34,926 bases of DNA, taken from a virus. Shown here piece after piece: positions 6,001 to 34,330 of the stretch (positions are counted from its first letter, which is position 1; each line of letters starts with the position of its first letter). A model generated the notes under the pieces. That model searched no databases. It saw only the letters and a list, made by a program, of their open reading frames with translations, and was not told where the DNA came from. The position numbers and the translations under genes are program-made. The DNA lies in the IMG/VR virus record IMGVR_UViG_3300047560_002009, positions 1-34,926 of that record; one strand, written 5' to 3'.

Positions 6001-6234
6001 ACAGTTAATATCAAACATTTAGTCTTAACTACTAATTTGGAAGTTCAGTATGGTGGTACAGGATTAAATACAATTACAACAAATGGTGTTGTATTTGGAA
6101 ATGGAACAGACCCTGTAGGTGTAACAGCCGCAAGCAATCCAGGATCAAACGCAACAACAAGTTATGGAATTTTAACAACCGACGCAAGTAATGTTCCTGT
6201 TTGGACAGACGTTATCGACGGTGGAAGTTATTAA
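1..6234 (+). CDS. Giant repetitive tail fibre/adhesin protein 1 (5'-partial)
   Basis: The reading frame is open from base 1, so the true start lies upstream; at least 2077 residues are present. The first ~200 residues look like a beta-helix fibre shaft. A Gly-Tyr beta module (about nt 680-900) follows, then four copies of a helical cassette with the pattern C-x-R-D-[IV]-x2-I-x2-A-x3-D (nt ~1024, 1444, 1879, 2365). From about nt 3410 to 6010 the protein is an array of short beta repeats built on TATTVN, VNIG and GNILKI-type motifs. It ends with a YGGTG...NGVVFGNG fibre motif. The first met codon seen (nt 223) is internal to well-formed sequence and is not the start. The composition (Thr, Asn, Gly, Ala; few Cys) and family resemblance indicate a virion surface fibre of marine T4-like phages. 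Whether it is the distal fibre, a side fibre or a baseplate decoration cannot be told. Confidence 0.85.
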   Translation, partial: TFRYRQKGANIISTIATGTVLYGKDFFYVNSSSYIAQLVIKHLQAPAYCVNIDSDAIVDTSPYIQNCSNITGPWMRNGVEWIPFQTEQPDLTGVMVTGPRPLLDSEIFPAMVDVYGINTSGSGGGMLIDGDRYNSQSPIKSMVADAFTQVTQGGVGFHITNFGYMQLVSCFAVFCDKAFYTTRGGYLSISNSVCDFGNSGFESDGYYLDPYDVGMVTEDYYSTVGSITVNSVGVGFLSAPTVTIDPPTLPSGRQATATAVIDPILGVITNINIDDPGYGYDFQPEVTFSPANGAVATANLSKNLQIDVHQLANKPQVGSIAIFDGDPNAYYVNSTRDSHLSFYYDAQKCSRDVGIILNAVLTDMVFGTNFAATTAGLAYLRSYSSKVTSSQKTQTIDGINQARDLALTYTANVSAQTAISAGFDAVTNIINLGLSGASIPNFSTPSGAEPGYVEAANILQANKIFIQEEVAAWINNTYSTFMYDKVKCGRDVKLILDAVLTDYIFGTNYWTKTAALSYIRSYTSTVTDDQKSQTIAGLNYARDRALALISDSGTETAITNSMAIITSIIDAVSGSGAPTTSFTSPLTPVAAGYDDAAAQLEINKTFIGDELIAYINDTLSPGTIPGYNATTCRRDVSYIVEAMAFDLYYGGNSATVGAALAYYNGSAVNVVVGETPEFISTFTRLQTIIPFIIQADVFGWTKSASNTSTQDVSLTAGSAGAGTEAQALIQIIIDVIVSGESAAPAVQKPTYSKGINYKLKNSYRLAILNEDDKIAYDTTTWLDETYGNFSYNETTCKRDIGYITDAMTYDLIYEGNSQTRIAALAYANGDVIRGQVEQTKAAYEYWQSIVRDIVQNVTLTPSVGNGQAQDTSISAGSPNPSYGPAQRCEELLQILIDVVDHGTGYVPDPETPPNYSLGDGSLATIRETILADTLTIQDGVIEYLNNTYGGYITVLFTPPIMSVASGTKAKFYNVSTISTASTALEYVGSGVTYNALPFFGGEPDPTKERVEIDQGKCFTVTSDQIGNYRIGQYFTVNAITGEITIDAEKLNLSGLASIGPFRRNGIPVGVQLREVSDSPNMIASTGLVDHNTAPTQYAVSTFVENRYLNKVTTSAETVDSSKVTFAGDVGIDGGDLTTAATTFNLVNDTATTVNLAGAGTNVNIGSSSGTTTVNNDVSVHGTSLGTNQGTFNLINDTATTVNIAGAGTSVNIGAATGTTTINNPTVTLANATSVRVNGANPVISSSSTGVLTLFDSAISSVNAFRAATNITIGESSGTLTIQSANTVLNGDLQVKGGDITTNQTAFNLLGTNATTVNAFGVASTLNLADSTGTTTIRNSLQVNINSVFGSDTTSTFTANGDIQFNLKDNTSDVFTISEGSNSYFRIDTSNAAEKTTFGTLPLVAFSNTTDASSTISASTTFAGGVGIGKKLYVGTDLNVAGSTTLGDSRTVDTLTVTGVSTFNVPDNTAIAFQVSENTQPYITADTSNGSESVTIEATPKLLVKNTTDNTLGTASTGSAQFTGGVGIAKNLTVGANLTVNTDIVVTGDLAVNGGDLTTTATTFNLLNGNATTINFGGAATTMAVGAAGSSGTVTIKNDNVVLDGDLQVKGGDITTNQTTFNLLNTTATTVNFSGVATSTNIATNAASVSTLTFGPAITGNIFKIGGTASGTINLTSDVTTGTVNAYTGITTGTVNIATAGASTTNIGGTGAGVNIGTTGGNSTLTVRGNATAGTATLATNADTAKVFDTTATTVNIAGAGTTITIGNASGATLTTRPDTIVGSNTTQNVYNTTATTVNFAGAGTAVNIGAATGTLTVGNPTITGTNATTFNMNGANPSIVTTSTGTASVFNTNATTGNLFGVATSVNVGTNAASASTLTFGPASTGNTFKVASASNGTINYTTDVTNGTVNAWQSVTGIINIGSSGTINLGTSTSANTTVVAGAAISGNILKIAGTASGTVNLTSDVTTGTVNVFSNVTTGTVNVATAGASTINLGGTGSTVNIKHLVLTTNLEVQYGGTGLNTITTNGVVFGNGTDPVGVTAASNPGSNATTSYGILTTDASNVPVWTDVIDGGSY

Positions 6235-6283: not shown

Positions 6284-9200
6284 ATGGCATCTACAATTAA
6301 GCACAAACGTTCCAGCGTATCTGGAAAAGTCCCACAACCAGGCGATTTGGCAGCAGGTGAATTAGCACTAAACACCGCAGATGCTAAAATCTACATGAAG
6401 AATGACGCTGATACAGTCGTCGATATTACAGCAAGCATTTACGCACAAGATACTAATGTAACAGTAAGCGATACTGGATCTAATGGTACTATCACATTTA
6501 CGGCAGATGGTACACAAGTAGGATCAATGGTAAGCAACCAAATAAGCCTTACACAAGATACTGTTATTGAAAATGCTAAAAATATTAAATTTAAAGAGCT
6601 AGGATCTAATGGCTCAAACTATGTCAGCATCAACGCACCAGATTCGTTATCCGCAAGTTATACATTAAGACTGCCTACTGCTACAGGAACAGTTAACCAA
6701 GTTATTAAAACAGACGGCGCTGGAAACCTTGATTGGGGTGATGTAGATACATTTGGTAGCAATAGAATTTATGTTAGTGCTGTCAAAGGTGACGATGCTA
6801 ACGACGGTATAACAGCACCAGTTTTAACTATTAAACGTGGTTTACAACTTGCGTCTGCTTTAGTATATGACTCTAACGGTATCCCAAATGGCACACGTAT
6901 TAACCTTATCGTTAGTGCAGGCGATTACTATATCGATAACCCAGTAATTATTCCAGACAACGTAACTGTTAAAGGTGATAGTTTACGTTCAGTTAACATT
7001 CGTCCGATGAATGCCGGAAGAGATTTGTTACGTGTACGCAATAGTACATATTTCGGTGAAGTTACATTCCGAGACGGATTAAACGATGGTGTTCCAAGTT
7101 ACACATTTGCTTATGCGGTGTCCTTTGATGATCCATCAGATGAAGCAACAGATCGTGACGGATATACAAATCTTCCAACTACTAAACCTATTATTACACA
7201 ATCTCCTTATATCCAGAACTGTACTTTATTATCTTTCTTAGGAGCAAGCGGTGTATTAGTTGACGGTAATCTTGTAACAACACCGAACGATCCATTTAAT
7301 CAAATCGAAGCAGAAAATCCTGTAGTAGGCCCAGCACCAAGCCAAGGTAAATCTATGGTTGCTAACGCCTTTACTATGATTAGCTTCGGCGGAACAGGTT
7401 GGCGTGTTATTAATGATGCGTATGTTCAGTTAGTATCATGTTTCCAGATTTTCATGTTAAACGGTACCTACACCCAGTCTGGTGGTTACTGTTCTATTAC
7501 TAACTCTGCGACCAACTTTGGATTGTATGCGCTACGTGCTAGTGGTTACAGTCCTAATGCGTTCGAGTTTGATAAAGGTTACATTGGCTCAACTGGTAGT
7601 TCAGGAAGTGTACAGAATATTACAGCGTTTGGTTGGACTCGTGTGAACGGCCCGGTTGAACAATTTATTTGTCGTTTCTACGAACCATTAAGTTACGATG
7701 TCGTAACTTGTAAGAGAGACGTTGGATATATCATCGATGCGATCGGTTACGACTTAATGTTTGGCGGAAATTTCCGTACTATTTCTGCCGGTAGAAGTTA
7801 CTTAAGATCACAAGCATCAGTAGTTACAACAACACAACAGTCGGCAACAATTACTGCCTTTAACTATTTAAAAACAGAATTAATTGCCCAAGATAACGCT
7901 GACACAGCCGCTTCAACATTTATTATCAATAATATTGATACTATTAATAGTATTATTGTTGGAGGATTAAATGCTGTTCCAGAAACAACATTAGTAGACC
8001 CAGACGGATACGATGTTGGTTATTTTAACGGACGTCGATTACTTGTAGCTAACACACAATTTATTAAAGACGAAGTTTCTGCGTACATGGCATTTACGTA
8101 CAATAGTATTTGGAGTCTTTTAAGTACAGCCGACAAAGCAAAATGTACACGTGACATTGGTTACATTATTGAAGCTCTTACTTACGATTTAACTTACGGC
8201 GGCAACTTAGAAACTATTGTAGCCGCAAGAGCGTATTACAACCAGTTAACAAATACATTAGTAGAACCAGGCGGTCAAAAGACTGCGTTACTTGCTGTAT
8301 TAGCAAGAATTAAATCTGTTATTAATAGTGTTGTACAAGGAAACCTTGTATTAGTAACAACAGGTAATACAACAGCACAAGATCGTTCAGGTACTGGTGG
8401 TAGTGCTGGGGCTGCATCGTTTACAGATGCACGTATCCAAGAAATATATGACTATGTAAACAGTATTACAAATACAATCACTGAAATATTACCAGATACA
8501 ACTTGGGTTAACTCGAGTCTAACCAACATTTTCTCTAACTTCCAAAGTAATAAAGCAACTACTGAAACTGCGGTAACTAACTACATTTCAGAACAAGGTG
8601 TTGGAGCAGATTTAACAAGTACATTTAAAAATACATTGCCAACATATTTGGAAGTTGACTTTGATGCCAGCACAGATGTTGACCCAACATCAGATACTTT
8701 TACTATCGTTGCCCACGGTTTTATTAACCAAGACGTAGTTACATATGATGCTGATTCAAATCTTCAAATAGGTGGATTATATTCAGGCGACGTATTTTAT
8801 GTTAAGAGACTAACTGCTGATACATTCCAACTATATTACGACACTAGTTTAACACGTTTAGTCGATGTTACTTTTGTTGGATCAGGAACACAGTATTTTA
8901 GAAAACAAGATTTTGAAATTACAGTTAACACCGTTACAGATACTCACAATACATTCCAAAATGTTGTATTAGCATCTGGTAGCGGAAGCGGATACTCATT
9001 TACAGCAGGAGACGAAGTTGTAGGTACAAACAGCGTTGGCGGTGGTGGTTATCCATGTAAAGGTTTTGTTTACAGTTACGATAGCACAACACGAACATTA
9101 GTATTGTGTATTAACACAGTTACTATTGGTTTAACAGAAACACGTAACTTGTTTGATGCTGGAACTACTATTAGTTTAGTAGATGGCGCATCGGTTAGTT

Positions 9201-12200
9201 ATACAGTTAGTTCTGTAACTACTAGAACTGATTTATACGGAGCAACATTTGATATTGCTTCAACACTTACAGGCGGCCAGTTAACAAACACAACAGGAAT
9301 GCCAGGTAAGAGAATTTGGTTCCATCGTCCAAGTATTACAAACAGTTCTGGACACACATGGGAATATGCCGGTTCGGGTACTGACTATAATGCGCTACCA
9401 CAAAACGGTGGCAAAGGTATACCGGCATACGAACAAGTTGCTGAAAACGGTGGACAAGTTTATACATCGGGTACTAACGAATTGGGTGACTTTAAAGTTG
9501 GTAACTTTATTACTGCTTATAACAGAACAGGTAACGTAACATTTACTAACAAGATTACCGTTGATACACTTGACGTACTACGATTAGGTGTCGGTGGTGT
9601 AACCGTTGAAAGTATCAGTACTGACATTGAAATGGGTAACAGCGAACCTGGCGGTCCTAAAGATTCTCGTATCAGTACACAATTAGCTGTTTACACTTAT
9701 ACACAAGACCACTTAGGTAACGTACTTGATAAAAACGTATCAACCAATGCTATCCCAGGATCGTTAGTTCAATTGAACAGTAACGGACAGATTAATAGTG
9801 ACTTGATTCCAACAAGCCGTAGCTTTACAAACTTTAGCTCAGGTGGTTTAGATAGTCGTTTATATCAAGTTGACGATGTTCCTGCAAACGATATGTTAGC
9901 GGGTGATATTGCTACAGAAACATTCCAACAACAAGAACTTACACTTAGTGATCCTATTACAGCAAATGTTGGAACTGCTATTTTCCAAACAACTGGTAAC
10001 ACAGCAACTACAGCAATTACTAGCGGATCAAATAGTTTCACAGTTACTCACAGTGGTGCGGTAACTGTTCCTCGAAATTCTTATGTATTGTTAGAAGGTG
10101 TTACACCTAGCACATACAACGGTGTATGGTTAGTTAATCGTTCTAGCGCTGGTAGCTTTGAAGTATTTTCAAGTATCAATCCAGGTGTAGCTACTGTACA
10201 AGGTACAATTTACTATGGCGGTGCTAGTGGACGATTAAAATCTAGTTATACAAGTGCTACAAGTATCATTGTTGGCAGTGTTGGAACATCTTTCAACACA
10301 GCATTTACCAATGGTGTTAATACTTTGATCATTGGTACTGACAGAACTCCTAGTGATACTAACGGAACTGTAACAGTAAGTACAGCTCCTGCAGCTTCTA
10401 GTTCGACTGGTAACTATTTCTTAAGAACATCTGTAACAGGACAGTATTTGATATTAGATGCTTCAATGAATCCAACTTATACAAATGGATCTATTAGCAA
10501 AGCATTTAGATATAGTAATAATGCGTATGTTACAACTACAACAGCTCACAATTTTACTTCAGGTAATGCGGTAAAAATTGACGCAGGCACAGCTAGTTTT
10601 GATGGAACTCAATATGTTACTGTAACAAGTACAACAGAATTTTACTATTCAAACACAGCATCGGACAGTTCTACCTCAGCTAGTACAACAGCAACGGCCA
10701 CACTAGCAGGTGCTTCAAGTGCCACAACAATGACTGGTAGTGTAACTTCTGCGGCACTAACTGGAACAATTACTCTTGGCGATTTTGTATTTGATGTAGC
10801 AGGTACTATACCAAAAGGTAGTAAAATTACTGCGGTTAACATGTCTGTTAACCCAAGAACATTTACTATTACGTTCCCGAGCGCATCGACAGTCGCATCA
10901 ACTTCATCAGCAGAATTAAAATTCTTTACACCTGCCACAGAAACAGGAACAGTTCGTTCAGTAGTTACTGCAGCTGACTCATTGAGCCAAGGTGAGTTTA
11001 CAGAATACAGAAGCGGTGTTGTTACTGTAGTTAATAACTTTACAGGATTAACAGGCGGTAGCGGATATACAAACGGAACTTATTACAGAGTTCCATTGAC
11101 CAGTGTAACAGGTACTGGTGTATGTGCCTTGGCTGACATCACTGTTGCGACTGGTGCTGTAACAAACGTTGACCTTGTATTTGGTGGCGCTGGTTATGCT
11201 ATCAACAACATACTATCAGCAAGCACAGCTGACATTGGCGCAGGCGCTGGATTCCAAATTACAGTTAGTGCCGTTGAAAAACGTGTCTATTTGAATTTAA
11301 CTGGCGGACAAACATTCGTTGCTACATCAGGCGCTCCTGACTTTGTCGAGCATAACGCAAGTGTTGTAGCAACATTTACTGCCACAACTACGTTGACAGC
11401 AACGTTTGATGCTAGATCAACTGGCGCTGGCGGCGGTGTTGATACAGTAACTAACAGAATCACAACATCATCGGCACACGGTTTTGGTGATGGCGATCCT
11501 GTACAATACAATCCTGGAACCGATCCAGCATTGGGCGGCTTGATCACCAATAACGTTTACTATGTAAAAGTTATTAACAGCACAACTGTAGAATTGTATA
11601 GCAATTACAATCTAGGTTCAATAATGATTATTTCATCTTCTACAGGTTCAGGTCATACATTGACTAGAAAAGCCGTAGACATTGTCAATAATACATTTAG
11701 TGTTCCAGCACACGGTTTTGTCACAGGTGATGCCTTCCGTATTTTAGGACCAGACTTACCATACGAAAGTAGCGTTCAAATCGCTCAAAATACATTCTGG
11801 TTCGTTGGTAGTGTTACTACAAACAGTTTCACAGTACACGCCTTACGTGCTGACGCTTTAAGCAGTATAGCAGGTATTGTATTAGGAGAAGGCAATTTAA
11901 CAGCTACAGGTAGCGGAACAATTACCGTTGTTAAAGCAAGTATTAAAGTAACAGGAACAGTAAACACAAGTAGTCAAGCAAGAGACAACTGGAACAGCCT
12001 TGTAACAACTAACATTGACGCAAGTAATATTATTTCTGGTATTGTTAGCACATCAAGATTAGCGACAGGTTCAGCTAACAGTTATTCGTTCTTACGCGGA
12101 GACAGCACTTGGGCTACTGCGGTACAAAGCGCACAGTTAGCGTCCAATAGTGCTTTGACATTGACTGGTAACGGTGCTAGTCCGTTCTATGGAGCATTAA

Positions 12201-14842
12201 CTTTTGACGTAAACAAAGTTAACGTAACTGGTGGTTCAGGCGGATTCTCAACAACTGGTGTAGCAAGTTTCAATACTACACAATTTGCTGTTGGTTTAGG
12301 TGATACATTGGCAGCAGGTGCTGTTCAAGTTAAAGCTGGCGTCATTGATGCTGGAACACTACAAACAAGAAACCTTGCTTACGTATTAGATTCAGCTAAC
12401 CATACAACACAACCTGTTAGTGTAGGCGGAACTGGTTTAGTAACATATACAACTGGTGATATGCTGTATGCGTCTGCTACAACTACATTGAATAAACTTA
12501 CTATTGGTGTAGCTGGAACAGTAATGACTAGTTCAGGAAGTGCTCCACAGTGGAGCTCAGGCCTAACGGTTGCTGAAGATGTGTCTATTACAGGCGCAGA
12601 TTTAACAACAACGTCAACTGCTCAAACTATGGTTTTCAATACTAATACAAAATCTGTTAGTATTGGTGGCGCGGCAACAAGCATAGCTATTGGTTCTAAT
12701 ACAGCTACAGAAGCGTTTACATCAAACGTTAAGAGTTATACAACAGGTGGTGCATCTTCTATCACAGTTACAGCTAACCTTGGTTTAGGCGCAACTATTA
12801 GTACAGTAGCTCGTTCTTCTAATACAGCAACAGTAGTAACAACAGTTAACCACGGATTAACAACAGGTGATACTGTAACTATCGTATGTTTATCTGACGC
12901 CAGTTACAATACTGTAGGTTCTTCAGTCACAGTCAGCGACGCAACAACCTTTACATATTCAAATGCTGGTTCAAACATTGGAACAGCAGCTGGTACTGGA
13001 ACAGTATATATTGGCGCAGTAGGTTTGGCTTTAGGAACAACCACAGCTACTTCAGATACTTGGTTAGCTTTCTCGTCTAGCCCAGTAACAGCAGGCGTTA
13101 GAGCAGGTATGTTGGTACAAGGTAGTTCATACATACCAGCAAACACCGTAGTAACTGGTTTAGATGGAAATAGAGTATACCTCAGTCAAGCAGTTACAGG
13201 TATTATTGCTGGCGCAACTCCTATCGCATTTACTGATACTTGTACAAGTATGGGAATCAAAACAGGTGACCAAGTAACTATTGCTACTTCTGGTATTACA
13301 AACGTAGATGGTACTTGGCCTGTAACAACAGCAGGCGCAAATTCGATAACATTTGCGTTTAATATAACTACAGCGGCTACAGCTAATAATACTGCTCGTG
13401 CTGGTACTATTGTTAAAAATAGTACATTGCTATTGAAAAATAGAAACGTTACATTTGGTAGCAGTGAAGCTAGCGGAACTCCAGTTGGCGCAACATTAAA
13501 AGGCGAAAACGGTGTTGGTACAAATATTGCCGGCGCTTCGTTAACAATACAAGGTGGTTTAGCATCGGGTTCAGGAACTAACGGAAGCATTATTTTCCGA
13601 ACAGGTACTACTGGTAGTTCTGGTACTACACAAGCTACCTCACAAGAACGCATGACTATTGCGTCAAGCAGTTCGTCAACTACTTTAGATTTGACAACTA
13701 CTAAAACAACAGCTAACGTGTTTAACACAACTGCTACAACAGTTAGTGCGTTTGGTGTTGCGGCTACGTTAAACATTGCTAACACAGCAAGTGCTACAAC
13801 AACAGGCGGCACTATTAACATTGGTACAAACGGTGGCGGCGCTCAGGTTGTAACATTAGGTTCTAGCACACGCGGTGCACTGGTACAAGGTACAACAACA
13901 TTTACAGTATCAGGTACAGCAGCCGGAGCAGGAACTTACACTGGATTAAGTCATAATTCTTCTGGTACAGCTCCGTTAGGTTCAGGCGGCACGTTCAACG
14001 TTACAACAACAGGTGCTGGAACTTATTCAACTGTAGCAACTATAACGATAGCGACTGGCGGCACAAGTTACTATGTTGGCCAAACTCTTACTATTCTTGG
14101 AACAAGTTTAGGCGGCGCAACTCCAACAAACGATTTAACATTGGTTGTAGCAACAGCCGTTAACTCAAATAATACGTTAGCTATTAACTCTACTGCTACC
14201 GGCACAACTAACATCACTACTCCAGTTACAACTGGTACAGGTAATATCTTTACAGGAATTACAGGAACAACAAGAATTGGCGCTAGCGGAACAATTCAAT
14301 TAGGTATCAGTGCTAGTGCGACAACTACAGTTCAGGTTGGCGGCGCAATTACAGGTAACACCCTCAAAGTAGCAGGCACAACTACGGGAACTATCAATTT
14401 AACAACTGATGTAACTTCGGGTACAGCAAATATCTTTACCAGCGTTACTGGAACAGTTAACATTGGAGCTTTAACTAGTACATCGTCTGTTGGTACATTG
14501 GCATTAAATTCTCAGAATTATAACAGCTCTGCCGAAACAGCTGGTATTACAACAGCTACAGTAGTCAGCAGTTTTGCTATTGCTACATATAGAAGTGCCA
14601 AGTATATTTTACAAGTTTCTTGTACAGCAGGTACTGACAGCGGCGCATATCAAGTAAGCGAAGTTTTAGTAATCCATAACGGATCAACAGCCCAAATGGT
14701 TGACTACGGTGTGGTAAAAACAGGAGCAAGTTTGGTAGTGTTCACTGCGGCAGTTAACGGTGCTAACTTAGAACTAACAGCAACACCTACAGCAGGTGAT
14801 ACAATTAAAGTAAGGGTAGTGAGAACGTTAAACACTATCTAA
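6284..14842 (+). CDS. Giant modular tail fibre/adhesin protein 2 (2852 aa)
   Basis: The start at 6284 is supported by AGGA seven nt upstream. Residues 1-50 (MASTIKHKRSSVSGKVPQ, then GELALN and a K-I-Y-M-K strand) match the N-terminal virion-attachment type seen on many phage fibres. A beta-helix-like region and two CxRD[IV] helical cassettes (nt ~7690 and ~8134) are shared with the upstream protein, as is a module ending DFKVGNF...ITVDTLDVLRLG. The middle (nt ~8690-13360) holds several beta modules of the type xxHG[FL]xxGDxV. TATTV/VNIG repeats occur near nt 13720-14470. The last ~110 residues form a compact C-terminal domain with AKYILQV, YQVSEVLVIHNG and a KVRVVRTL end, as seen at the ends of other phage fibres. 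Function as a receptor-binding or fibre protein is inferred from family resemblance and neighbours. Confidence 0.85.
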   Translation: MASTIKHKRSSVSGKVPQPGDLAAGELALNTADAKIYMKNDADTVVDITASIYAQDTNVTVSDTGSNGTITFTADGTQVGSMVSNQISLTQDTVIENAKNIKFKELGSNGSNYVSINAPDSLSASYTLRLPTATGTVNQVIKTDGAGNLDWGDVDTFGSNRIYVSAVKGDDANDGITAPVLTIKRGLQLASALVYDSNGIPNGTRINLIVSAGDYYIDNPVIIPDNVTVKGDSLRSVNIRPMNAGRDLLRVRNSTYFGEVTFRDGLNDGVPSYTFAYAVSFDDPSDEATDRDGYTNLPTTKPIITQSPYIQNCTLLSFLGASGVLVDGNLVTTPNDPFNQIEAENPVVGPAPSQGKSMVANAFTMISFGGTGWRVINDAYVQLVSCFQIFMLNGTYTQSGGYCSITNSATNFGLYALRASGYSPNAFEFDKGYIGSTGSSGSVQNITAFGWTRVNGPVEQFICRFYEPLSYDVVTCKRDVGYIIDAIGYDLMFGGNFRTISAGRSYLRSQASVVTTTQQSATITAFNYLKTELIAQDNADTAASTFIINNIDTINSIIVGGLNAVPETTLVDPDGYDVGYFNGRRLLVANTQFIKDEVSAYMAFTYNSIWSLLSTADKAKCTRDIGYIIEALTYDLTYGGNLETIVAARAYYNQLTNTLVEPGGQKTALLAVLARIKSVINSVVQGNLVLVTTGNTTAQDRSGTGGSAGAASFTDARIQEIYDYVNSITNTITEILPDTTWVNSSLTNIFSNFQSNKATTETAVTNYISEQGVGADLTSTFKNTLPTYLEVDFDASTDVDPTSDTFTIVAHGFINQDVVTYDADSNLQIGGLYSGDVFYVKRLTADTFQLYYDTSLTRLVDVTFVGSGTQYFRKQDFEITVNTVTDTHNTFQNVVLASGSGSGYSFTAGDEVVGTNSVGGGGYPCKGFVYSYDSTTRTLVLCINTVTIGLTETRNLFDAGTTISLVDGASVSYTVSSVTTRTDLYGATFDIASTLTGGQLTNTTGMPGKRIWFHRPSITNSSGHTWEYAGSGTDYNALPQNGGKGIPAYEQVAENGGQVYTSGTNELGDFKVGNFITAYNRTGNVTFTNKITVDTLDVLRLGVGGVTVESISTDIEMGNSEPGGPKDSRISTQLAVYTYTQDHLGNVLDKNVSTNAIPGSLVQLNSNGQINSDLIPTSRSFTNFSSGGLDSRLYQVDDVPANDMLAGDIATETFQQQELTLSDPITANVGTAIFQTTGNTATTAITSGSNSFTVTHSGAVTVPRNSYVLLEGVTPSTYNGVWLVNRSSAGSFEVFSSINPGVATVQGTIYYGGASGRLKSSYTSATSIIVGSVGTSFNTAFTNGVNTLIIGTDRTPSDTNGTVTVSTAPAASSSTGNYFLRTSVTGQYLILDASMNPTYTNGSISKAFRYSNNAYVTTTTAHNFTSGNAVKIDAGTASFDGTQYVTVTSTTEFYYSNTASDSSTSASTTATATLAGASSATTMTGSVTSAALTGTITLGDFVFDVAGTIPKGSKITAVNMSVNPRTFTITFPSASTVASTSSAELKFFTPATETGTVRSVVTAADSLSQGEFTEYRSGVVTVVNNFTGLTGGSGYTNGTYYRVPLTSVTGTGVCALADITVATGAVTNVDLVFGGAGYAINNILSASTADIGAGAGFQITVSAVEKRVYLNLTGGQTFVATSGAPDFVEHNASVVATFTATTTLTATFDARSTGAGGGVDTVTNRITTSSAHGFGDGDPVQYNPGTDPALGGLITNNVYYVKVINSTTVELYSNYNLGSIMIISSSTGSGHTLTRKAVDIVNNTFSVPAHGFVTGDAFRILGPDLPYESSVQIAQNTFWFVGSVTTNSFTVHALRADALSSIAGIVLGEGNLTATGSGTITVVKASIKVTGTVNTSSQARDNWNSLVTTNIDASNIISGIVSTSRLATGSANSYSFLRGDSTWATAVQSAQLASNSALTLTGNGASPFYGALTFDVNKVNVTGGSGGFSTTGVASFNTTQFAVGLGDTLAAGAVQVKAGVIDAGTLQTRNLAYVLDSANHTTQPVSVGGTGLVTYTTGDMLYASATTTLNKLTIGVAGTVMTSSGSAPQWSSGLTVAEDVSITGADLTTTSTAQTMVFNTNTKSVSIGGAATSIAIGSNTATEAFTSNVKSYTTGGASSITVTANLGLGATISTVARSSNTATVVTTVNHGLTTGDTVTIVCLSDASYNTVGSSVTVSDATTFTYSNAGSNIGTAAGTGTVYIGAVGLALGTTTATSDTWLAFSSSPVTAGVRAGMLVQGSSYIPANTVVTGLDGNRVYLSQAVTGIIAGATPIAFTDTCTSMGIKTGDQVTIATSGITNVDGTWPVTTAGANSITFAFNITTAATANNTARAGTIVKNSTLLLKNRNVTFGSSEASGTPVGATLKGENGVGTNIAGASLTIQGGLASGSGTNGSIIFRTGTTGSSGTTQATSQERMTIASSSSSTTLDLTTTKTTANVFNTTATTVSAFGVAATLNIANTASATTTGGTINIGTNGGGAQVVTLGSSTRGALVQGTTTFTVSGTAAGAGTYTGLSHNSSGTAPLGSGGTFNVTTTGAGTYSTVATITIATGGTSYYVGQTLTILGTSLGGATPTNDLTLVVATAVNSNNTLAINSTATGTTNITTPVTTGTGNIFTGITGTTRIGASGTIQLGISASATTTVQVGGAITGNTLKVAGTTTGTINLTTDVTSGTANIFTSVTGTVNIGALTSTSSVGTLALNSQNYNSSAETAGITTATVVSSFAIATYRSAKYILQVSCTAGTDSGAYQVSEVLVIHNGSTAQMVDYGVVKTGASLVVFTAAVNGANLELTATPTAGDTIKVRVVRTLNTI

Positions 14843-27252: not shown

Positions 27253-27260
27253 GATAAATA
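27253..27260 (+). promoter_or_regulatory. Late promoter box GATAAATA for gp13
   Basis: GATAAATA fits the NATAAATA late consensus and is followed by an AGGAGA ribosome site and the gp13 ATG at 27276, giving a conventional short leader. It is separated by two nt from the opposing gp14 box. Confidence 0.65.
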
Positions 27261-27275
27261 CAACAGGAGAGAACA

Positions 27276-28040
27276 ATGTCCAACATAGATACAAAAGCAG
27301 CCAGACAACAGGTTTTCGAGTATGTACGTACCATGCTAGGCGATGGCATGATTGACGTTGAACTCGACCCTCAACATTACGAAATAGCACTAGATCGTGC
27401 TATTAATAAGTTTAGACAACGTAGCAGTCACGCAGTAGAAGAAAGCTACATGTTTTTAGAGCTAAAACAGAACCAAAATGATTACAGATTACCTGACGAA
27501 GTTATCCAAGTCCGTGCTTGCCATCGTAGAACGTTGGGTAGCAGAACTGGAGGAGGAACGGGTTCAAACTTTGAACCGTTCAACTTAGCATATACAAACA
27601 CCTACTTGCTAAACAGCACAATGTTAGGCGGTATTGCTACATATGACATGTTCTCGCAGTATCAAGAAATGGTGGGTCGTATGTTTGGTGCGTTTATTGA
27701 ATTCCAGTGGATTCAACATAGCCATACATTACGCATTTTACAACGTCCTTTCACAGACGGTGAAACTATCATGTTGTACTGCTATAACTACAAACCAGAT
27801 TACGTTCTTATTGATGACTTGTATGCCAAGCAATGGTTTAGAGATTACACACTAGCTAATTGTAAACTGATGCTAGGCGAAGCACGTTCTAAGTTCGCAC
27901 AAATTGCTGGCCCTCAAGGCGGCACACAACTTAACGGCGGAGATTTAAAATCAGCTGGCAAAGAAGAACTTGAAAAATTAGAAAAAGAATTAGAGAATTT
28001 AGTTTCTGGCGGAACGCCAATGACATTTGTTATCGGTTAA
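27276..28040 (+). CDS. 13: gp13 neck protein (254 aa)
   Basis: AGGAGA five nt upstream fixes the start. The sequence carries the gp13 pattern: an N-terminal helix (QQVFEYVRTMLGDGMIDVEL), ALDRAINKFRQRSS, EESYMFLEL, YRLPDEVIQVRACHRR, the central MFSQYQEMVGRM and WIQHSHTLRILQRP, and the FRDYTLANCKLMLGEARSKF helix. T4 gp13 (309 aa) forms the head-proximal neck ring with gp14. The C-terminus has a Lys/Glu-rich helix (EELEKLEKELENL). It lies divergent to gp14, whereas in T4 genes 13, 14 and 15 run in one direction. The next gene begins seven nt after its stop. Confidence 0.92.
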   Translation: MSNIDTKAARQQVFEYVRTMLGDGMIDVELDPQHYEIALDRAINKFRQRSSHAVEESYMFLELKQNQNDYRLPDEVIQVRACHRRTLGSRTGGGTGSNFEPFNLAYTNTYLLNSTMLGGIATYDMFSQYQEMVGRMFGAFIEFQWIQHSHTLRILQRPFTDGETIMLYCYNYKPDYVLIDDLYAKQWFRDYTLANCKLMLGEARSKFAQIAGPQGGTQLNGGDLKSAGKEELEKLEKELENLVSGGTPMTFVIG

Positions 28041-28047: not shown

Positions 28048-28455
28048 ATGAAAGTTTTTGAAATTATTACAGAAGGCACAAAGACAGGTAATGGCACTAC
28101 AGCCAAGGGCAACATGCAGGCAATGTCTAAAGAACAAAAAGCCGCTATGAAAAATGCCACAACTGTCGCTGGTTTAAATCAATCTACTGGTAGTGCTTAT
28201 ATTGGTTATCGCTATGGTATTGCTTTAGCGGCGGCACCACACTTTCCAGCAGGTGGTGAAGCAGATAACTGGATCGGTGGAGATCCGTTAATTAGTCCTT
28301 ACAGTGACGAAGAATGGGAAATGGTAAAAGCCGCGGCCAAACAAGTTGGTGCTGGCGGTATCAAGAACTGGAGCGGCAACCGCAGTAAAGAAGTTGCTGA
28401 CGTAAACAAAACTAGCACCGTTGCTAAACCAAAACGCAACAAGTACGGTGTTTAA
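28048..28455 (+). CDS. Probable internal head protein with capsid-targeting-like N-terminus (135 aa)
   Basis: The ATG at 28048 (MKVFEIITEG) is preferred over an upstream ATG inside gp13 because it begins with a recognisable peptide. M-K-x-aromatic-...-I-T-E resembles the T4 capsid-targeting sequence of internal proteins (MKTYQEFIAE), and I-T-E followed by Gly fits the (L/I)-x-E cleavage rule of the T4 prohead protease. The rest contains YIGYRYGIALAAAP and a basic C-terminal tail (NWSGNRSKE..., ending KPKRNKYGV), also known from proteins of unknown function in marine T4-like phages. Basic charge fits a DNA-associated packaged protein. No Shine-Dalgarno is visible. Gene identity as a small conserved phage protein is firm; the head-targeting role is inference. 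Confidence 0.75.
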   Translation: MKVFEIITEGTKTGNGTTAKGNMQAMSKEQKAAMKNATTVAGLNQSTGSAYIGYRYGIALAAAPHFPAGGEADNWIGGDPLISPYSDEEWEMVKAAAKQVGAGGIKNWSGNRSKEVADVNKTSTVAKPKRNKYGV

Positions 28456-28516: not shown

Positions 28517-29197
28517 ATGATTATTGGGTTTGTTGGATTTATTGGGTCGGGCAAAGATACTGCCGCAGACTATCTAGTTAACTTTCACGGCTTTCGCAGA
28601 GATTCATTTGCTAACACATTAAAAGACGCGGTTTCAGCTGTATTTGGTTGGGACCGCGTTCTGCTGGAAGGTCGTACTAAAGAGGCTCGCGAATGGCGAG
28701 AGCAAGTAGATGAGTGGTGGGCAGAGCGTTTAGGTATGCCGCAATTAACTCCTCGCTGGGTTTTACAACGCTGGGGAACAGAAGTTTGCCGTAACGGTTT
28801 TCACGATGATATTTGGATTGCCAGTGTTGAAAACAAAATGCGTAAAACTAAAGACAACATTGTTATCAGCGATGTTCGTTTTCCTAACGAAATTAAAGCA
28901 ATTAAAAACGCAGGCGGAAAAGTAATCCGTGTAGTGCGTGGTCCGGATCCAGAATGGTATCAAGACGCTTGGAATATGAATCAAGGCCCTACTAATATGA
29001 GCTGGGCTATTAGTAAAATGCGTATGGAAAAGCTAGGTATTCATGCTAGCGAAACAGCTTGGATTGGAAAAGGCATCGACATTGACGTAGACAATAACGG
29101 CTCAATTGATGACTTGTATGAACAAATTAGAAATCTGGTAGAAGACCGCCACGCTTCCACTGAAAACCTTCTTTATGAAGGACTCGAGAGCAGTTAG
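28517..29197 (+). CDS. 1: Deoxynucleoside monophosphate kinase, T4 gp1-like (226 aa)
   Basis: Residues 7-16 (GFIGSGKDTA) are the Walker A loop of dNMP kinases. WVLQRWGTEVCRNGFHDDIW and ISDVRFPNEIKAIKNAGGKVIRVVR match the lid and nucleotide-handling segments, and VDNNGSIDDLYEQI matches the end of T4 gp1. T4 gp1 (241 aa) phosphorylates dTMP, dGMP and hydroxymethyl-dCMP to diphosphates for phage DNA synthesis. The insert with WREQVDEWWAERLGMP precedes the conserved block, and an HASE motif (res. ~176) is present. GGGAGA supports the start. Its own sigma70-type promoter implies early expression although it stands among late genes. Its last 71 nt overlap the convergent HNH-like gene. Confidence 0.9.
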   Translation: MIIGFVGFIGSGKDTAADYLVNFHGFRRDSFANTLKDAVSAVFGWDRVLLEGRTKEAREWREQVDEWWAERLGMPQLTPRWVLQRWGTEVCRNGFHDDIWIASVENKMRKTKDNIVISDVRFPNEIKAIKNAGGKVIRVVRGPDPEWYQDAWNMNQGPTNMSWAISKMRMEKLGIHASETAWIGKGIDIDVDNNGSIDDLYEQIRNLVEDRHASTENLLYEGLESS

Positions 29198-29462
29198 CAC
29201 AAATTGTTTTTAAATTACTTGGACGGCTATTGTTTAAGTTACCGTCCAAGTGATAAACATTAAACTGCTCTACGTGCTTACTTTTAAAACCACACTTATC
29301 GCATGTGGTTTTTATCCTATAACCGTCCTTATACCACTTAGGTATATAGGCACCGGTACCTCCTTTTAAACAAGACTCACACTTACTCCTATAGTAAGTT
29401 CTTCCGTTCTTAACATAGTTAATAGCGGCTAATCTATATCCACAAACACATAAAGGGCGCAT
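29127..29462 (-). CDS. HNH-endonuclease-like zinc protein (111 aa)
   Basis: CVC, CESC, CDKC and CANC knuckles suggest two zinc sites. The segment VYHLDGNLNNSRPSNLKTIC (res. ~69-88) has the H-x-D-G-N-x2-N-x4-N-L-x3-C form of HNH/zinc-loop nucleases. Similar proteins occur as free-standing genes in marine T4-like phages, and some are probably homing endonucleases. It lies alone on the - strand between the + strand kinase and sheath genes and overlaps the kinase by 71 nt in antisense. AATAAATA stands four nt before its ATG with no ribosome site between. The usual final HNH histidine pair is not clear, so it could be catalytically dead or a zinc-binding regulator. Confidence 0.7.
   Translation of the reverse strand: MRPLCVCGYRLAAINYVKNGRTYYRSKCESCLKGGTGAYIPKWYKDGYRIKTTCDKCGFKSKHVEQFNVYHLDGNLNNSRPSNLKTICANCSRVLHKEGFQWKRGGLLPDF
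29214..29254. repeat. Inverted repeat (stem-loop) in the HNH-like gene
   Basis: ACTTGGACGG (29217-29226) and its perfect complement CCGTCCAAGT (29242-29251) flank a 15-nt loop, and three further pairs (one G-T) extend the stem to 13 bp. It starts 17 nt after the kinase stop and encodes the HLDGN...RPSN segment on the other strand. No U-run follows on either strand. Confidence 0.65.
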
Positions 29463-29466
29463 TTTG

Positions 29467-29474
29467 TATTTATT
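29467..29474 (-). promoter_or_regulatory. Late promoter box AATAAATA for the HNH-like gene
   Basis: Read on the - strand, AATAAATA is followed by CAAA and the ATG of the HNH-like gene. The only purine-rich site (AGGAAAGG) lies upstream of the box and too far from the ATG to act as a ribosome site. Confidence 0.5.
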
Positions 29475-29570: not shown

Positions 29571-32567
29571 ATGGCCCAATTAAGTTCACCTGGTGTAGCA
29601 GTATCAGTTATAGATGAAAGTTTCTATACACCCGCTGCTCCGGGCACAGTCCCTTTAATTATCGTTGCCAGCGCCGAGAATAAACAAAACGGCAGTGGCA
29701 CTGGCACCGCTCCAGGTACATTGAAAGCCAATGCTGGCCAAGTGTATCTATTAACAAGTCAGAAAGATCTTGCTGACACTTTCGGTGACCCAGTATTTAA
29801 AACAGATGCTAACAACAACCCAGTTCACGCTGGCGAGCAAAACGAATATGGTCTACAAGCCGCATATAGCTTGTTAGGCGTAAGTAATCGTGCTTTTGTT
29901 GTTCGCGCAGATTTAGATTTAGATCAACTAACAGCACAATCAGAAGCACCATCAGCTGAACCAAACAATGGTACATACTGGTTAGATACAGCAAACTCAC
30001 ATTGGGGTATCTTTGAATGGAACGGTGCTGCCGCAACAACAACAGGCGGACAAACATTTACAAATAAAGTACCTTTAGTAATCACAACAGCTTCACAAGT
30101 TGACTTAGGTACAGGCGGTCCAAAGAGCACAATCGGTAAAAACGGCACATACGCTGTAGTTGCTGTACGTGATACAAGCTACGACGACGCATTACTAACA
30201 ACAAAGCACCCAATGACTTTCTGGTACAGAGATTCTTCAGGAACATGGGTACAGTTAGGTGATACAACTTGGTCCGGAACAGGCCCAGGTGCTAAACAAA
30301 TACAAATCAGCGCACACACTGATGTTCCACAATGGAAAGCAAGTGCGTTGGACGCACCTACAGGTAGCGTATGGATTAAAACAACAGAACCTAACTTAGG
30401 TGCTCGTTGGAGAGTTAAGCGTTACAATGCTACAACTCAAGCATTTGACCAAGTCAATGCTCCAATCTATAGCGATAACGTAGAAGCATTATACAAGTTA
30501 GACAAAGCTGGCGGTGGTGTAAATCTTGCTGCCGGAACATTGTACGTTAAGCCTACTCAAAATCCTGGCGTAGATTTTGCTATCTATCGCAGAAAGAGCG
30601 CGGCTCCAACAGTAATTAAATCTGTTAAAATTACAGAAACAACTATCAGCGGAACTTCTTCTTACGCATTTGAAATGTCTGAAACATTGAAGAATTCAGG
30701 TTCTTATGACAGTGCTGTAACAGTTAGTTTCACAGCAACAGGCTCTGTTGACGATGCTGCAGCTTTAGCATCAGCAATCAATGCCGCAGGCTTTACAAAT
30801 ATTGAAGCAAGTGTTGACGCACAAAACCGTGTTGTTATTGAACACAGCTTAGGCGGTGATATCCTTATCAATGATATGGACGGCGGCCTAACACAAGCAG
30901 GTTTTGCAGCTTACGACTTCGATACTAGCACAGGAACTGTTAACCTATACGCAGACAACGGTAACTTAGTTGCCAGCTTATGGGAACCATTAACTTATGT
31001 TTCTAGCGCAGATGCTCCAACAAGTTTAACAGCAGACGGTACATTATGGTACAGTAGCGTTCTAAACGAAGTTGACATCATGATTCATGATGGAAGCACA
31101 TGGGTAGGTTATGCTAACGGCGTAGCAGGCACAGATCCAGCAGGCCCAATCATTAGCGCAACTAAACCAGAAACACAAAGCGACGGTACTACACCTTTAG
31201 CAACAGGCGACCTATGGGTTGACTGGAGTGCTACTGAAGATTTCCCAGCTGTTTACAAATACAACGCTGACTTACAAAAGTGGTTAGTTGTTGATAAGAG
31301 TGACCAAAGCACAGAAGACGGCATGTTATTTGCCGACGCTCGTTGGAATACAAATGGCGTAGATATGGACGCTAGCACAATTGAAGAATTGCTAGTAAGC
31401 GATTTCTTAGATTTTGATGCTCCAGATCCAGCACTATATCCAAAAGGAATGTTGCTATGGAACTTACGTCGTAGCGGATTCAACGTAAAAGAATTCAAAC
31501 GTAACTACATTGACTTGACAGCAGATAACCCACGTTATGGCGATGAGTCTATGGGCGACTACTACCCACACCGTTGGGTAACTAAGAGCGGTAACCAAGA
31601 CGACGGTTCTGGTACATTCGGCCGTAAAGCACAACGTAAGATTGTTACACAAGCTCTACAAGCACTTGTTAATAGCAACCAAGCAATCCGCGACGAAGAA
31701 AGTCGTGTATTCAACTTAATCGCTTGCCCAGGTTACCCAGAGTTAATTGGCGAAATGATTAGCTTGAACTATGACCGTGGATTAACAGCCTTTGTTGTTG
31801 GTGATACACCTGCTCGTTTACCAAGTGACGCTACAAGTTTACTAGAGTGGGGCTTGAACATGAACTTAGCACTTGAAGATAATGATATCGGTGCTACAAG
31901 TTACGACGAGTACATGGCTATGTTCTATCCATGGGGCTTTACAAGCGACAACTTTGGTAACAACGTTGCTGTTCCTCCAAGCCACTTAATGTTAAGAACT
32001 ATTGCCCTAAACGACCAAGTTGCTTATCCTTGGTTTGCTCCAGCAGGCGTTCGTCGTGGTGGTATTACTAACGCAACAGCAGTCGGTTACATCGATGCTG
32101 AAGGCGAATTCAAATCTGTGGCATTGAACACAGGACAACGCGATACATTGGCTAGCGTTAAGATTAACCCTATTACATTCCTAACAGGAACAGGTTTAGT
32201 CAACTATGGCCAGTATACAAGAGCAAGAGCCGCAAGTTCGTTAGATCGAATCAACGTTGCTCGTTTAGTTGCTTACTTACGTAGACAATTGAACACATTA
32301 GCTAAACCATATATCTTTGAACCTAATGATAAAATCACTAGAGATGAGATTAAAGGTGCCGTAGATAGCTTACTATTAGAACTAGTAGGTCAACGTGCGC
32401 TGTATGATTACATTGTAGTGTGTGATTCAAGTAACAATACACCTTCTAGAATCGACCGCAATGAATTGTATATTGATATTGCTATTGAACCAGTTAAAGC
32501 GGTTGAATTCATTTACATTCCATTGCGCTTAAAGAACACTGGCGAGATAGCCGGGTTAGGCGCTTAA
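29571..32567 (+). CDS. 18: Tail sheath protein gp18 (998 aa)
   Basis: AGGAG eight nt upstream supports the start. Residues 1-115 (LSSPGVAVSVIDESF, PLIIVASAENKQNG, YLLTSQKDLADTFG, AAYSLLGVSNRAFVVRADL) are the sheath N-terminal domain. Residues ~586-998 (NYIDLTADNPRYGDESMGDY, HRWVTKSGNQDDGSGTFGRK, VFNLIACPGYPELIGEMISL, WGFTSDN, VPPSHLMLRTIALND, GGITNATAVGYIDAEGEF, ELYIDIAIEPVKAVEFIYIP) are the conserved C-terminal core. The sheath subunit contracts around the tube. At 998 aa it is much longer than T4 gp18 (659 aa). The extra length is a block at about residues 125-585 with repeated G-x-[LY]-W...[YF]-[DN]-G-x-x-W modules, probably exposed on the sheath surface. It is followed directly by gp19. 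Confidence 0.95.
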   Translation: MAQLSSPGVAVSVIDESFYTPAAPGTVPLIIVASAENKQNGSGTGTAPGTLKANAGQVYLLTSQKDLADTFGDPVFKTDANNNPVHAGEQNEYGLQAAYSLLGVSNRAFVVRADLDLDQLTAQSEAPSAEPNNGTYWLDTANSHWGIFEWNGAAATTTGGQTFTNKVPLVITTASQVDLGTGGPKSTIGKNGTYAVVAVRDTSYDDALLTTKHPMTFWYRDSSGTWVQLGDTTWSGTGPGAKQIQISAHTDVPQWKASALDAPTGSVWIKTTEPNLGARWRVKRYNATTQAFDQVNAPIYSDNVEALYKLDKAGGGVNLAAGTLYVKPTQNPGVDFAIYRRKSAAPTVIKSVKITETTISGTSSYAFEMSETLKNSGSYDSAVTVSFTATGSVDDAAALASAINAAGFTNIEASVDAQNRVVIEHSLGGDILINDMDGGLTQAGFAAYDFDTSTGTVNLYADNGNLVASLWEPLTYVSSADAPTSLTADGTLWYSSVLNEVDIMIHDGSTWVGYANGVAGTDPAGPIISATKPETQSDGTTPLATGDLWVDWSATEDFPAVYKYNADLQKWLVVDKSDQSTEDGMLFADARWNTNGVDMDASTIEELLVSDFLDFDAPDPALYPKGMLLWNLRRSGFNVKEFKRNYIDLTADNPRYGDESMGDYYPHRWVTKSGNQDDGSGTFGRKAQRKIVTQALQALVNSNQAIRDEESRVFNLIACPGYPELIGEMISLNYDRGLTAFVVGDTPARLPSDATSLLEWGLNMNLALEDNDIGATSYDEYMAMFYPWGFTSDNFGNNVAVPPSHLMLRTIALNDQVAYPWFAPAGVRRGGITNATAVGYIDAEGEFKSVALNTGQRDTLASVKINPITFLTGTGLVNYGQYTRARAASSLDRINVARLVAYLRRQLNTLAKPYIFEPNDKITRDEIKGAVDSLLLELVGQRALYDYIVVCDSSNNTPSRIDRNELYIDIAIEPVKAVEFIYIPLRLKNTGEIAGLGA

Positions 32568-33259: not shown

Positions 33260-34330
33260 ATGTCCAGTTACGCACTACGTCAATTTGTATCAGGGGCCTT
33301 ACACCCTAAAGGTAATGTCGGCGATTTCCAACACGCCGCTCGTCTATTTGTTGATAGCGATTTAAGACTTGCCCCTAAACGCAAGTTTAGTTTCCACGTC
33401 GTTTTTAACATTAATCCAGGCGCATTAAAAACATTAAACTTTCAGTATCAGCATCAAACTGAAATTAATATGTTGGTTAAGACTTGTGAACTTCCTAAGT
33501 TTACACTTAAGACAGAAACACTTAACCAATATAACAGGAAGAAAGTTGTCAATTTAGGTATCGATTACAATCCTATCAATATTAGGTTCCACGATGATAA
33601 CTTAGGTGTCGTTGGACAGCTTTGGCAAAACTATTATAATTATTACTACGCAGACGTTACGGCAGCTAACGTAGTCGGTGGATATAATAGAAATGCGATG
33701 CAAGGCCCAGGATTTTTTAGATCTCGTTATGGCCTTGATAATAACAGCAGTATGCCGTTTTTCACAGATATCACTATCTATCAAATGGCAAAACGTGCTT
33801 GGTATAGTTATAAACTAATTAATCCTGTGATTACAAGTTGGAGTCACGACGCATTAGATTACAGTAGTAGTCAAAGCTCTGAACAAGCTATGACTCTTGC
33901 GTATGAAGCTGTAACTTATAATACAGGATATGTCGTTCCCGGACAAAATCCTCCAGGCTTTGGTGGTCCAGACCACTACGACACCATGCCAAGTCCTATT
34001 AGTCTTGCTGGCGGCGGAACTAAAACATTGTTTGGTCAAGCAGGTGTACTTGCTGGTATCGAAGCAGTATTCGGCGCTGTTGGTTCCGGACAAGCATTTA
34101 GTAGTGTAGGTAATTTCTTAGGAACTGCTATCACAGCTATTAACACATATCAAAATGCCAAAGCATTAACTAACGCAGGTGTTAGAGCAGAAGTTACTAA
34201 CATGGCAGTCAGAGGTTTAACTAGTTTAAGTAGAATTGGTTTAAGTGGTTTATCAAATACAAGTTTCCCTGTAAACAATCCAGTAAATACTACCGTTGCG
34301 ACACAACGGAATATAACAGGAGGACCATAA
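33260..34330 (+). CDS. Conserved structural protein, tail tube-like / possible gp54 baseplate-tube protein (356 aa)
   Basis: The start MSSYALRQFVSGALHPKG is typical of a protein conserved in marine T4-like phages, with HAARLFVD, KRKFSFHVVFNINP, LVKTCELPKFTLKTETLNQYNRKK, DYNPINIRFHDDN and the aromatic-rich LWQNYYNYYYAD. The LVKTCELPKF-LNQYNRKK-IxFHDDN pattern is that of the tube-fold family (gp19, gp54), so it may initiate or cap the tube on the baseplate. Assignment to gp54 specifically is uncertain. Residues ~250-320 are Gly/Ala-rich. It has no Shine-Dalgarno and its promoter is inferred to be only four nt upstream. The codons at its end (Thr-Gly-Gly-Pro) supply the AGGAGG site of the next gene. 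Confidence 0.75.
   Translation: MSSYALRQFVSGALHPKGNVGDFQHAARLFVDSDLRLAPKRKFSFHVVFNINPGALKTLNFQYQHQTEINMLVKTCELPKFTLKTETLNQYNRKKVVNLGIDYNPINIRFHDDNLGVVGQLWQNYYNYYYADVTAANVVGGYNRNAMQGPGFFRSRYGLDNNSSMPFFTDITIYQMAKRAWYSYKLINPVITSWSHDALDYSSSQSSEQAMTLAYEAVTYNTGYVVPGQNPPGFGGPDHYDTMPSPISLAGGGTKTLFGQAGVLAGIEAVFGAVGSGQAFSSVGNFLGTAITAINTYQNAKALTNAGVRAEVTNMAVRGLTSLSRIGLSGLSNTSFPVNNPVNTTVATQRNITGGP

Follow-up and report, generated by a model that had tools for sequence, protein, structure and literature searches.

A putative capsid-targeting propeptide on a small basic protein of an uncultivated T4-like phage and on unrelated proteins of its relatives

The open reading frame and its late-gene setting

In this work we have analysed a virus record of 34,926 bases over its entire length (the window). 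The record comes from a T4-like phage, of which it is a fragment with genes for a neck protein, a dNMP kinase, a tail sheath and tail tubes. Our interest was in the open reading frame at 28048-28455 on the plus strand, which runs from an ATG at 28048 to a stop codon at 28453-28455 and encodes 135 amino acids with the N-terminus MKVFEIITEGTKTGNG. A first, sequence-only reading of this DNA had described a frame starting with MKVFEIITE followed by G, and its coordinates and N-terminus are as given there. There is an in-frame TTG 21 nt 5' of the ATG; we favour the ATG because stand-alone homologues start at the methionine of the peptide. The product is divided here into a capsid-targeting-like N-terminal propeptide, MKVFEIITE (28048-28074, +), read directly from the sequence and marked by a conserved hydrophobic-x-E and by its recurrence on non-homologous proteins, and a mature part which we call domain A (Gly10-Val135; 28075-28455 with the stop codon, +), with relatives, at least 498 in number, in viral contigs. 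Cleavage by the prohead protease is predicted after Glu9, between 28074 and 28075 (+), from the conservation of hydrophobic-x-E.

Domain A consists of 126 residues, ends in KRNKYGV and is basic, with a pI of 9.58; the last 35 residues, for which a basic tail had been claimed, have a pI of 10.4 (8 K+R vs 2 D+E). In being small and basic it resembles the T4 internal proteins, and a pI above 7 was found for 75 of 78 distinct mature domain A sequences from the best 80 of at least 498 relatives. No significant Pfam or PHROG family was found for the product in our scans; matches to Pfam HERV-K_env_2 (E 0.034, under the cut-off) and PHROG 27137 (E 0.059, weak) were dismissed as chance. An AlphaFold2 model of domain A from 46 sequences was poorly ordered (pLDDT 56.6, pTM 0.29). 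As to its cellular role, our likeliest guess is a DNA-associated or host take-over function.

The gene directly 5' of the frame (27276-28040, +) encodes a neck protein, the head-tail adaptor Ad2 of T4 neck type (PHROG 211, E 1.6e-35), and the gap between its stop codon and the ATG is 7 nt. The T4 record labels gp13 'head-tail adaptor Ad2', in agreement with the gp13 neighbour named in the sequence-only reading. Downstream lie a deoxynucleoside monophosphate kinase gene (28517-29197, +; PHROG 139, E 2.8e-55; Pfam DNMK) and the tail sheath gene (29571-32567, +; PHROG 10581, E 9.6e-229). The heptamer ATAAATA, which resembles a T4 late promoter, occurs at 27254-27260 (+), 22 nt 5' of the neck start. 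The window has only four copies, at 14842, 27254 and 29532 (+) and at 29473 (-), compared with about 16 expected from base composition, and all four sit 11-39 nt 5' of an ATG; the genes behind them are a large frame at 14876, the neck gene, the sheath gene and a reverse-strand frame starting at 29462. Since our frame follows the neck stop by 7 nt and the neck gene has this heptamer in front of it, it is probably transcribed late, on the transcript of the neck gene served by the copy at 27254. The arrangement of neck gene, domain A and dNMP kinase gene in this order is seen again in relatives. The neck gene, found in 19 of 84 domain A loci, and the kinase gene, found in 20, each lie no more than 500 nt from domain A in 18 loci (relatives taken from the best 80 of at least 498).

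Several other genes deserve mention. In relatives, a ferritin/Dps-like protein (L001:3790-4230; Pfam Ferritin, E 1.1e-20) is encoded 3' of a fusion of a cytidylyltransferase with domain A, and of the 55 loci in which such a gene was found, 45 have it no more than 500 nt from domain A (best 80 of at least 498 relatives). The protein itself is without a capsid-targeting-like peptide; a phage ferritin/Dps next to cargo genes may have a bearing on DNA protection. The window also holds two very long frames, 1-6234 (2,077 aa, cut by the window end) and 6284-14842 (2,852 aa); they contain repeats, for instance FNLLNTTATTVNF, and perhaps encode tail fibre or other surface proteins. Behind the ordinary tube gene there is a second, longer tail-tube-like protein of 356 aa (33260-34330; PHROG 4542, E 2.9e-16), and between the kinase and sheath genes a small reverse-strand frame (29127-29462) with cysteine pairs and its own ATAAATA, which, judged by eye, is perhaps an HNH-type nuclease.

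Conservation of the predicted cut site

With the window protein as query we found seven loci in viral contigs (L001-L007), and with an alignment of nine sequences (A2) at least 498 relatives in uncultivated viral contigs, of which the best 80 were kept. The window protein had no match at E 0.01 in 50,697 named phage records, and L007, the most divergent relative of the first search, had none there even at E 1. In a collection of bacterial and archaeal genomes 51 pattern matches for domain A were obtained and none was confirmed, so that no host could be named. Two architectures are seen among the relatives. In the first, domain A is encoded by itself and is preceded by a peptide of its own (MKINEIINE|G, MRAKEFIVE|Q, MKILDIITE|S); in the second, it forms the C-terminus of a longer protein, usually after a cytidylyltransferase-like domain (PHROG 3041/395) which has its own start peptide, MKLRELFE or similar. 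In both, a glutamate stands at the boundary of domain A. A second, divergent domain A, again with a peptide of its own, accompanies the first in the same locus at L032:10395, L089:1736, L092:10349, L108:2556 and L081:10298; the cargo gene has apparently been duplicated there.

The sequence-only reading had named the conservation of the I-T-E position as the point on which it could fail. It withstood this check: hydrophobic-x-Glu precedes domain A in 73 of 73 distinct relatives from the best 80 of at least 498, a count in which the G007 row was split at VFE, not ITE. P1 is always E, P3 is I in 35, V in 22, L in 15 and F in one, P2 varies, and G occupies P1' in 33 of the 73. The T4 prohead protease gp21 cleaves by the rule L/I-X-E (PMC9026906), and MKVFEIITE is a short N-terminal peptide which ends in this way and falls within the length of about 7-19 residues expected of such propeptides; the valine found at P3 in the family falls outside the strict L/I rule. 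The stand-alone peptides have a consensus like M-[KR]-x-x-[ED]-[IF]-[IV]-x-E. One part of the earlier description, the order M-K-x-aromatic, did not survive the comparison: among 26 distinct nine-residue peptides (from the best 80 of at least 498 relatives) position 4 is R in six, K in five, L and N in three each, H, Y and F in two each, and otherwise C, I or T, so the aromatic residue is not a feature of the family and we dropped it as a requirement. Position 7 is always hydrophobic (I, F, V, L).

The fused proteins are informative about which part of the peptide is retained. A motif lies within 28 residues of the domain A core in 41 of 41 fused rows (from the best 80 of at least 498 relatives), whereas in other parts of these proteins 24% of stretches of that length contain one; these figures are descriptive, since the statistic takes the last motif before the core and the sequences are related and not independent. 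One of the 41 rows (MIAE|GGM, L103 type) is actually a stand-alone protein with two sites. The whole peptide is embedded at only seven of the 41 junctions (MRAHQFVKE, MRAHQFINE, MRAYQFIRE), and the remaining junctions retain the cut-site part alone (AVAE, SLRE, KISE, LLQE and so on). That the targeting half disappears and the cut half stays is what would be expected if the N-terminus of the fusion does the targeting while the junction still needs to be cut.

A protease of the S77 (gp21) type was not detected in the window, which is a fragment. In relatives, where most records are likewise fragments, it was found in 1 of 8 and 5 of 15 records; all six of these also carry gp23, which was present in 7 of 16 records of one survey. 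In the gp23 of relatives (L111-L116), the T4 sequence FLTE65 followed by A aligns with L[AMS]E followed by S[AP]T[AT]G, mostly then ATSAGN. A second module of the cargo locus starts with E followed by TATAGxTSAGN, which is nearly the start of the capsid protein. It occurs alone, as in MRLRELFE followed by TASAGATSAGN, and fused, as in VLGE followed by TATAGSTSAGN, and E stands one or two residues before ATAG in eight of eight distinct contexts, found with a pattern that did not require E.

Could the peptide be simply a short N-terminal helix which binds a partner, such as a scaffold, neck or other phage protein, and is never cut? We infer the cleavage, and in T4 IPIII different residues govern targeting and processing (PMC9026906), both of which leave room for such a helix. 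We nevertheless consider it very improbable, since P3 and P1 are retained at internal junctions that have lost the other residues of the peptide, and in the gp23 of relatives this short motif also stands at the aligned T4 cut.

The same peptide on unrelated proteins

The earlier reading had proposed a search for other N-termini of this form, and the search found them on several non-homologous proteins in the same loci. In the loci of relatives (best 80 of at least 498), a regular expression for the peptide matched at 198 of 2,036 methionines in the first 35 codons of open reading frames and at 17 of 8,606 later ones, and 10 of the 17 internal matches are the embedded copies at fusion junctions. 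After clustering of the frames at 60% identity the counts were 34 of 628 early and 2 of 2,628 internal methionines (p=1e-22; best 80 of at least 498). The counts are without L032 and L035, which are parts, and thus duplicates, of G002 and G003; the overlapping loci L001-L007 of the first search are represented by G000, G002-G005, G007, L031 and L066, and the record of L004 is counted only as G004. The expression used misses MKSFVEYLIE of G003, which a wider one finds. The tagged proteins form nine clusters without detected homology to each other, six of them present in at least five loci (best 80 of at least 498). Examples are cytidylyltransferases, a 123-aa family (MRIIELLE), DUF6321 proteins and a DUF6267 protein. 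A further one, of 724 aa with the start MKVLQILKE (L057:5847-8018), combines a deaminase domain of the cytidine/dCMP type with a region resembling ParB, and is possibly a packaged enzyme.

It might be argued that the likeness to the T4 peptide is due to chance or to simple common ancestry of the tagged genes, and within the window alone the expression indeed matches once, at one of 25 early methionines and none of 127 internal ones, which is not significant by itself. We regard this as scarcely credible: the mature parts are non-homologous, the enrichment at gene starts is strong after dereplication, and the early methionine codons of lambda (0/91), T7 (0/59) and P2 (0/72) gave no match among 222. 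In single genomes the test is underpowered, and with a strict motif the enrichment at starts over internal positions was strong only in G017 (7 and 0, p=2.4e-5) and weak in G003 (2 and 0, p=0.04), G016 (2 and 2, p=0.16) and Melnitz (1 and 0, p=0.29). In about 150 of the 169 kb of T4, a loose motif found eight distinct gene starts, namely those of ipII, ipIII, 21, 22, 24, alt, 2 and one more. The products of ipII, ipIII, 21, 22, 24 and alt are known prohead-core or gp21-processed proteins (PMC9026906, PMC9958956). The last E of the loose motif in Alt is not the site where Alt is cut, because its published propeptide has seven residues (PMC9026906). The T4 DNA-end protector gp2 (L130:16062-16886, minus strand) starts with MAIFQIINE followed by S and fits the same motif.

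Homologues of the cytidylyltransferase are present in cultured phages, and in 8 of 10 such records they have starts resembling a capsid-targeting sequence: MKSFSQFLTE (P-SSM2), MKKFSAFLNE (S-SM1), MKKFSAFLTE (P-SSM7, S-RIM8), VKSFGQFLTE (S-SSM7), MKLFNQFFKE (S-CRM01), MRFLDFIKE (P-TIM40) and MKKFSEIIE (Melnitz). The start of the S-CAM1 protein could not be called, and the cytidylyltransferase of jumbo phage CBB lacks a peptide of this kind. The virion proteome of S-SM1 includes a 'putative citidylyltransferase (T4-GC190)' (Sullivan et al. 2010, PMC3037559), and T4-GC190 is the cluster number of the very S-SM1 gene which bears MKKFSAFLNE. This links the capsid-targeting-like start to presence in the particle, not to cleavage. 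Virion proteomics was found for this homologue of the fusion partner only (PMC3037559), and for no phage with domain A.

More questions are raised by the shell proteins. Could the peptide be cut from a structural protein of the shell, the vertex or the neck region and not from an injected internal protein? T4 gp24 starts with MAKINELLRE and its first 10 residues are removed (PMC9958956), and since this shell protein has a similar cut N-terminus, such a peptide cannot tell internal from shell proteins. Our frame also adjoins neck and sheath genes, and the second module copies the cut site of the capsid protein. Domain A itself, however, is small and basic with no sign of a capsid fold, its model is poorly ordered, it is fused to an enzyme in many relatives, and one homologue of the enzyme is present in virions without being a shell protein (PMC3037559). 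A structural role of this kind is therefore unlikely, even if it is the most serious of the alternatives.

A model for cargo delivery and its comparison with known systems

The explanation which we prefer, and hold to be very probable, is that the frame encodes a small basic head cargo protein with a capsid-targeting propeptide which is cut by the prohead protease; its targeting, cleavage, packaging and injection we infer. The earlier claim of a T4 capsid-targeting-like peptide most likely holds, given the hydrophobic-x-E in all 73 relatives and the recurrence on non-homologous proteins. According to this model, MKVFEIITE would act like the T4 capsid-targeting sequence and draw the late-expressed precursor into the prohead core, where the activated gp21-type protease would cut after Glu9 and free the basic domain of 126 residues. 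The freed domain would stay in the head with the DNA and would probably enter the host with it. In relatives, domain A would be one module of a larger cargo set in which non-homologous proteins bear the same kind of peptide, and in the fusions the peptide of the cytidylyltransferase together with the retained junction site could allow one targeting peptide to bring in two products.

Perhaps the arrangement is a general one. We give about even chances to the broader proposal that a widespread group of uncultivated T4-like phages has a modular, polyprotein-style cargo. A common N-terminal peptide would send unrelated modules, such as the cytidylyltransferase and the deaminase-containing protein, to the head; the modules would be joined, split and reshuffled with a site kept at each junction, one of them nearly copying that of the capsid protein, and the head protease would free several injected proteins from each precursor. 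What we consider new are the modular fusions with conserved internal cut sites, the module which nearly copies the capsid cut site and the breadth of the tagged set. In a search of titles and the beginnings of abstracts no paper was found that deals with capsid-targeting peptides of cyanophages or of T4-like phages from the environment, and 'capsid targeting sequence' and 'cyanophage' occurred together only in PMC9026906, where 'cyanophage' stands in the reference list alone. It has been suggested that the capsid-targeting sequence may let T4-like phages package various proteins (PMC9026906).

The peptide makes it possible to predict from sequence which of the many unknown proteins in environmental T4-like phages travel inside the head and are likely to be delivered together with the DNA, and the same rule marks the mature N-termini of the predicted cargo. 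By this route T4 brings an ADP-ribosyltransferase and an anti-restriction protein into its host. A common tag on unrelated proteins of uncultivated phages points to many undescribed effectors for host take-over or counter-defence, and the fusions which retain the protease site suggest a route for the evolutionary rearrangement of cargo sets.

How does this compare with known systems? In the giant phage SPN3US, many ejected head proteins have propeptides which, as in our model, are cut after a glutamate motif by the prohead protease; unlike in our family, the motif is A-x-E, with Ala at P3, the propeptides described are mostly long and the phage lineage is different (PMC10052503). The T4-GC190 proteins of the cyanophages S-SM1 and P-SSM2 and the Melnitz homologue belong to the enzyme family of the fusion partner (PHROG 3041/395) and share the capsid-targeting-like start, but neither these phages nor other named records have a match to domain A. 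Among the T4 shell proteins, both cut by gp21 after L/I-x-E, gp24 loses a propeptide of 10 residues and gp23 one of 65 (PMC9958956). Peptides of relatives such as MKINELLTE are close to that of gp24, and the gp23 of relatives has LxE aligned with FLTE at residue 65, but domain A matches neither shell protein.

The closest likeness is to T4 IPII and IPIII with the capsid-targeting sequence MKTYQEFIAE. They share with our family a peptide of 9-10 residues with an M-K start and a hydrophobic-x-E end, the core E-F-I-x-E in relatives starting with MRAKEFIVE, a small basic mature protein and the use of one peptide on different mature parts. In T4 IPIII the main targeting residues are those at positions 4 and 7 (Y4, F7). 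Unlike in IPIII, position 4 is not conserved in our family, where position 7 is hydrophobic throughout; the family peptide is one residue shorter, has no fixed aromatic residue at position 4 and accepts Val at P3, and domain A also occurs in fusions that follow an enzyme and have a site inside the protein. The mature domain A has no sequence similarity to IPI, IPII or IPIII in Pfam, PHROG or the named phage records. The product of our frame may thus work like a T4 internal protein, without being filed as one.
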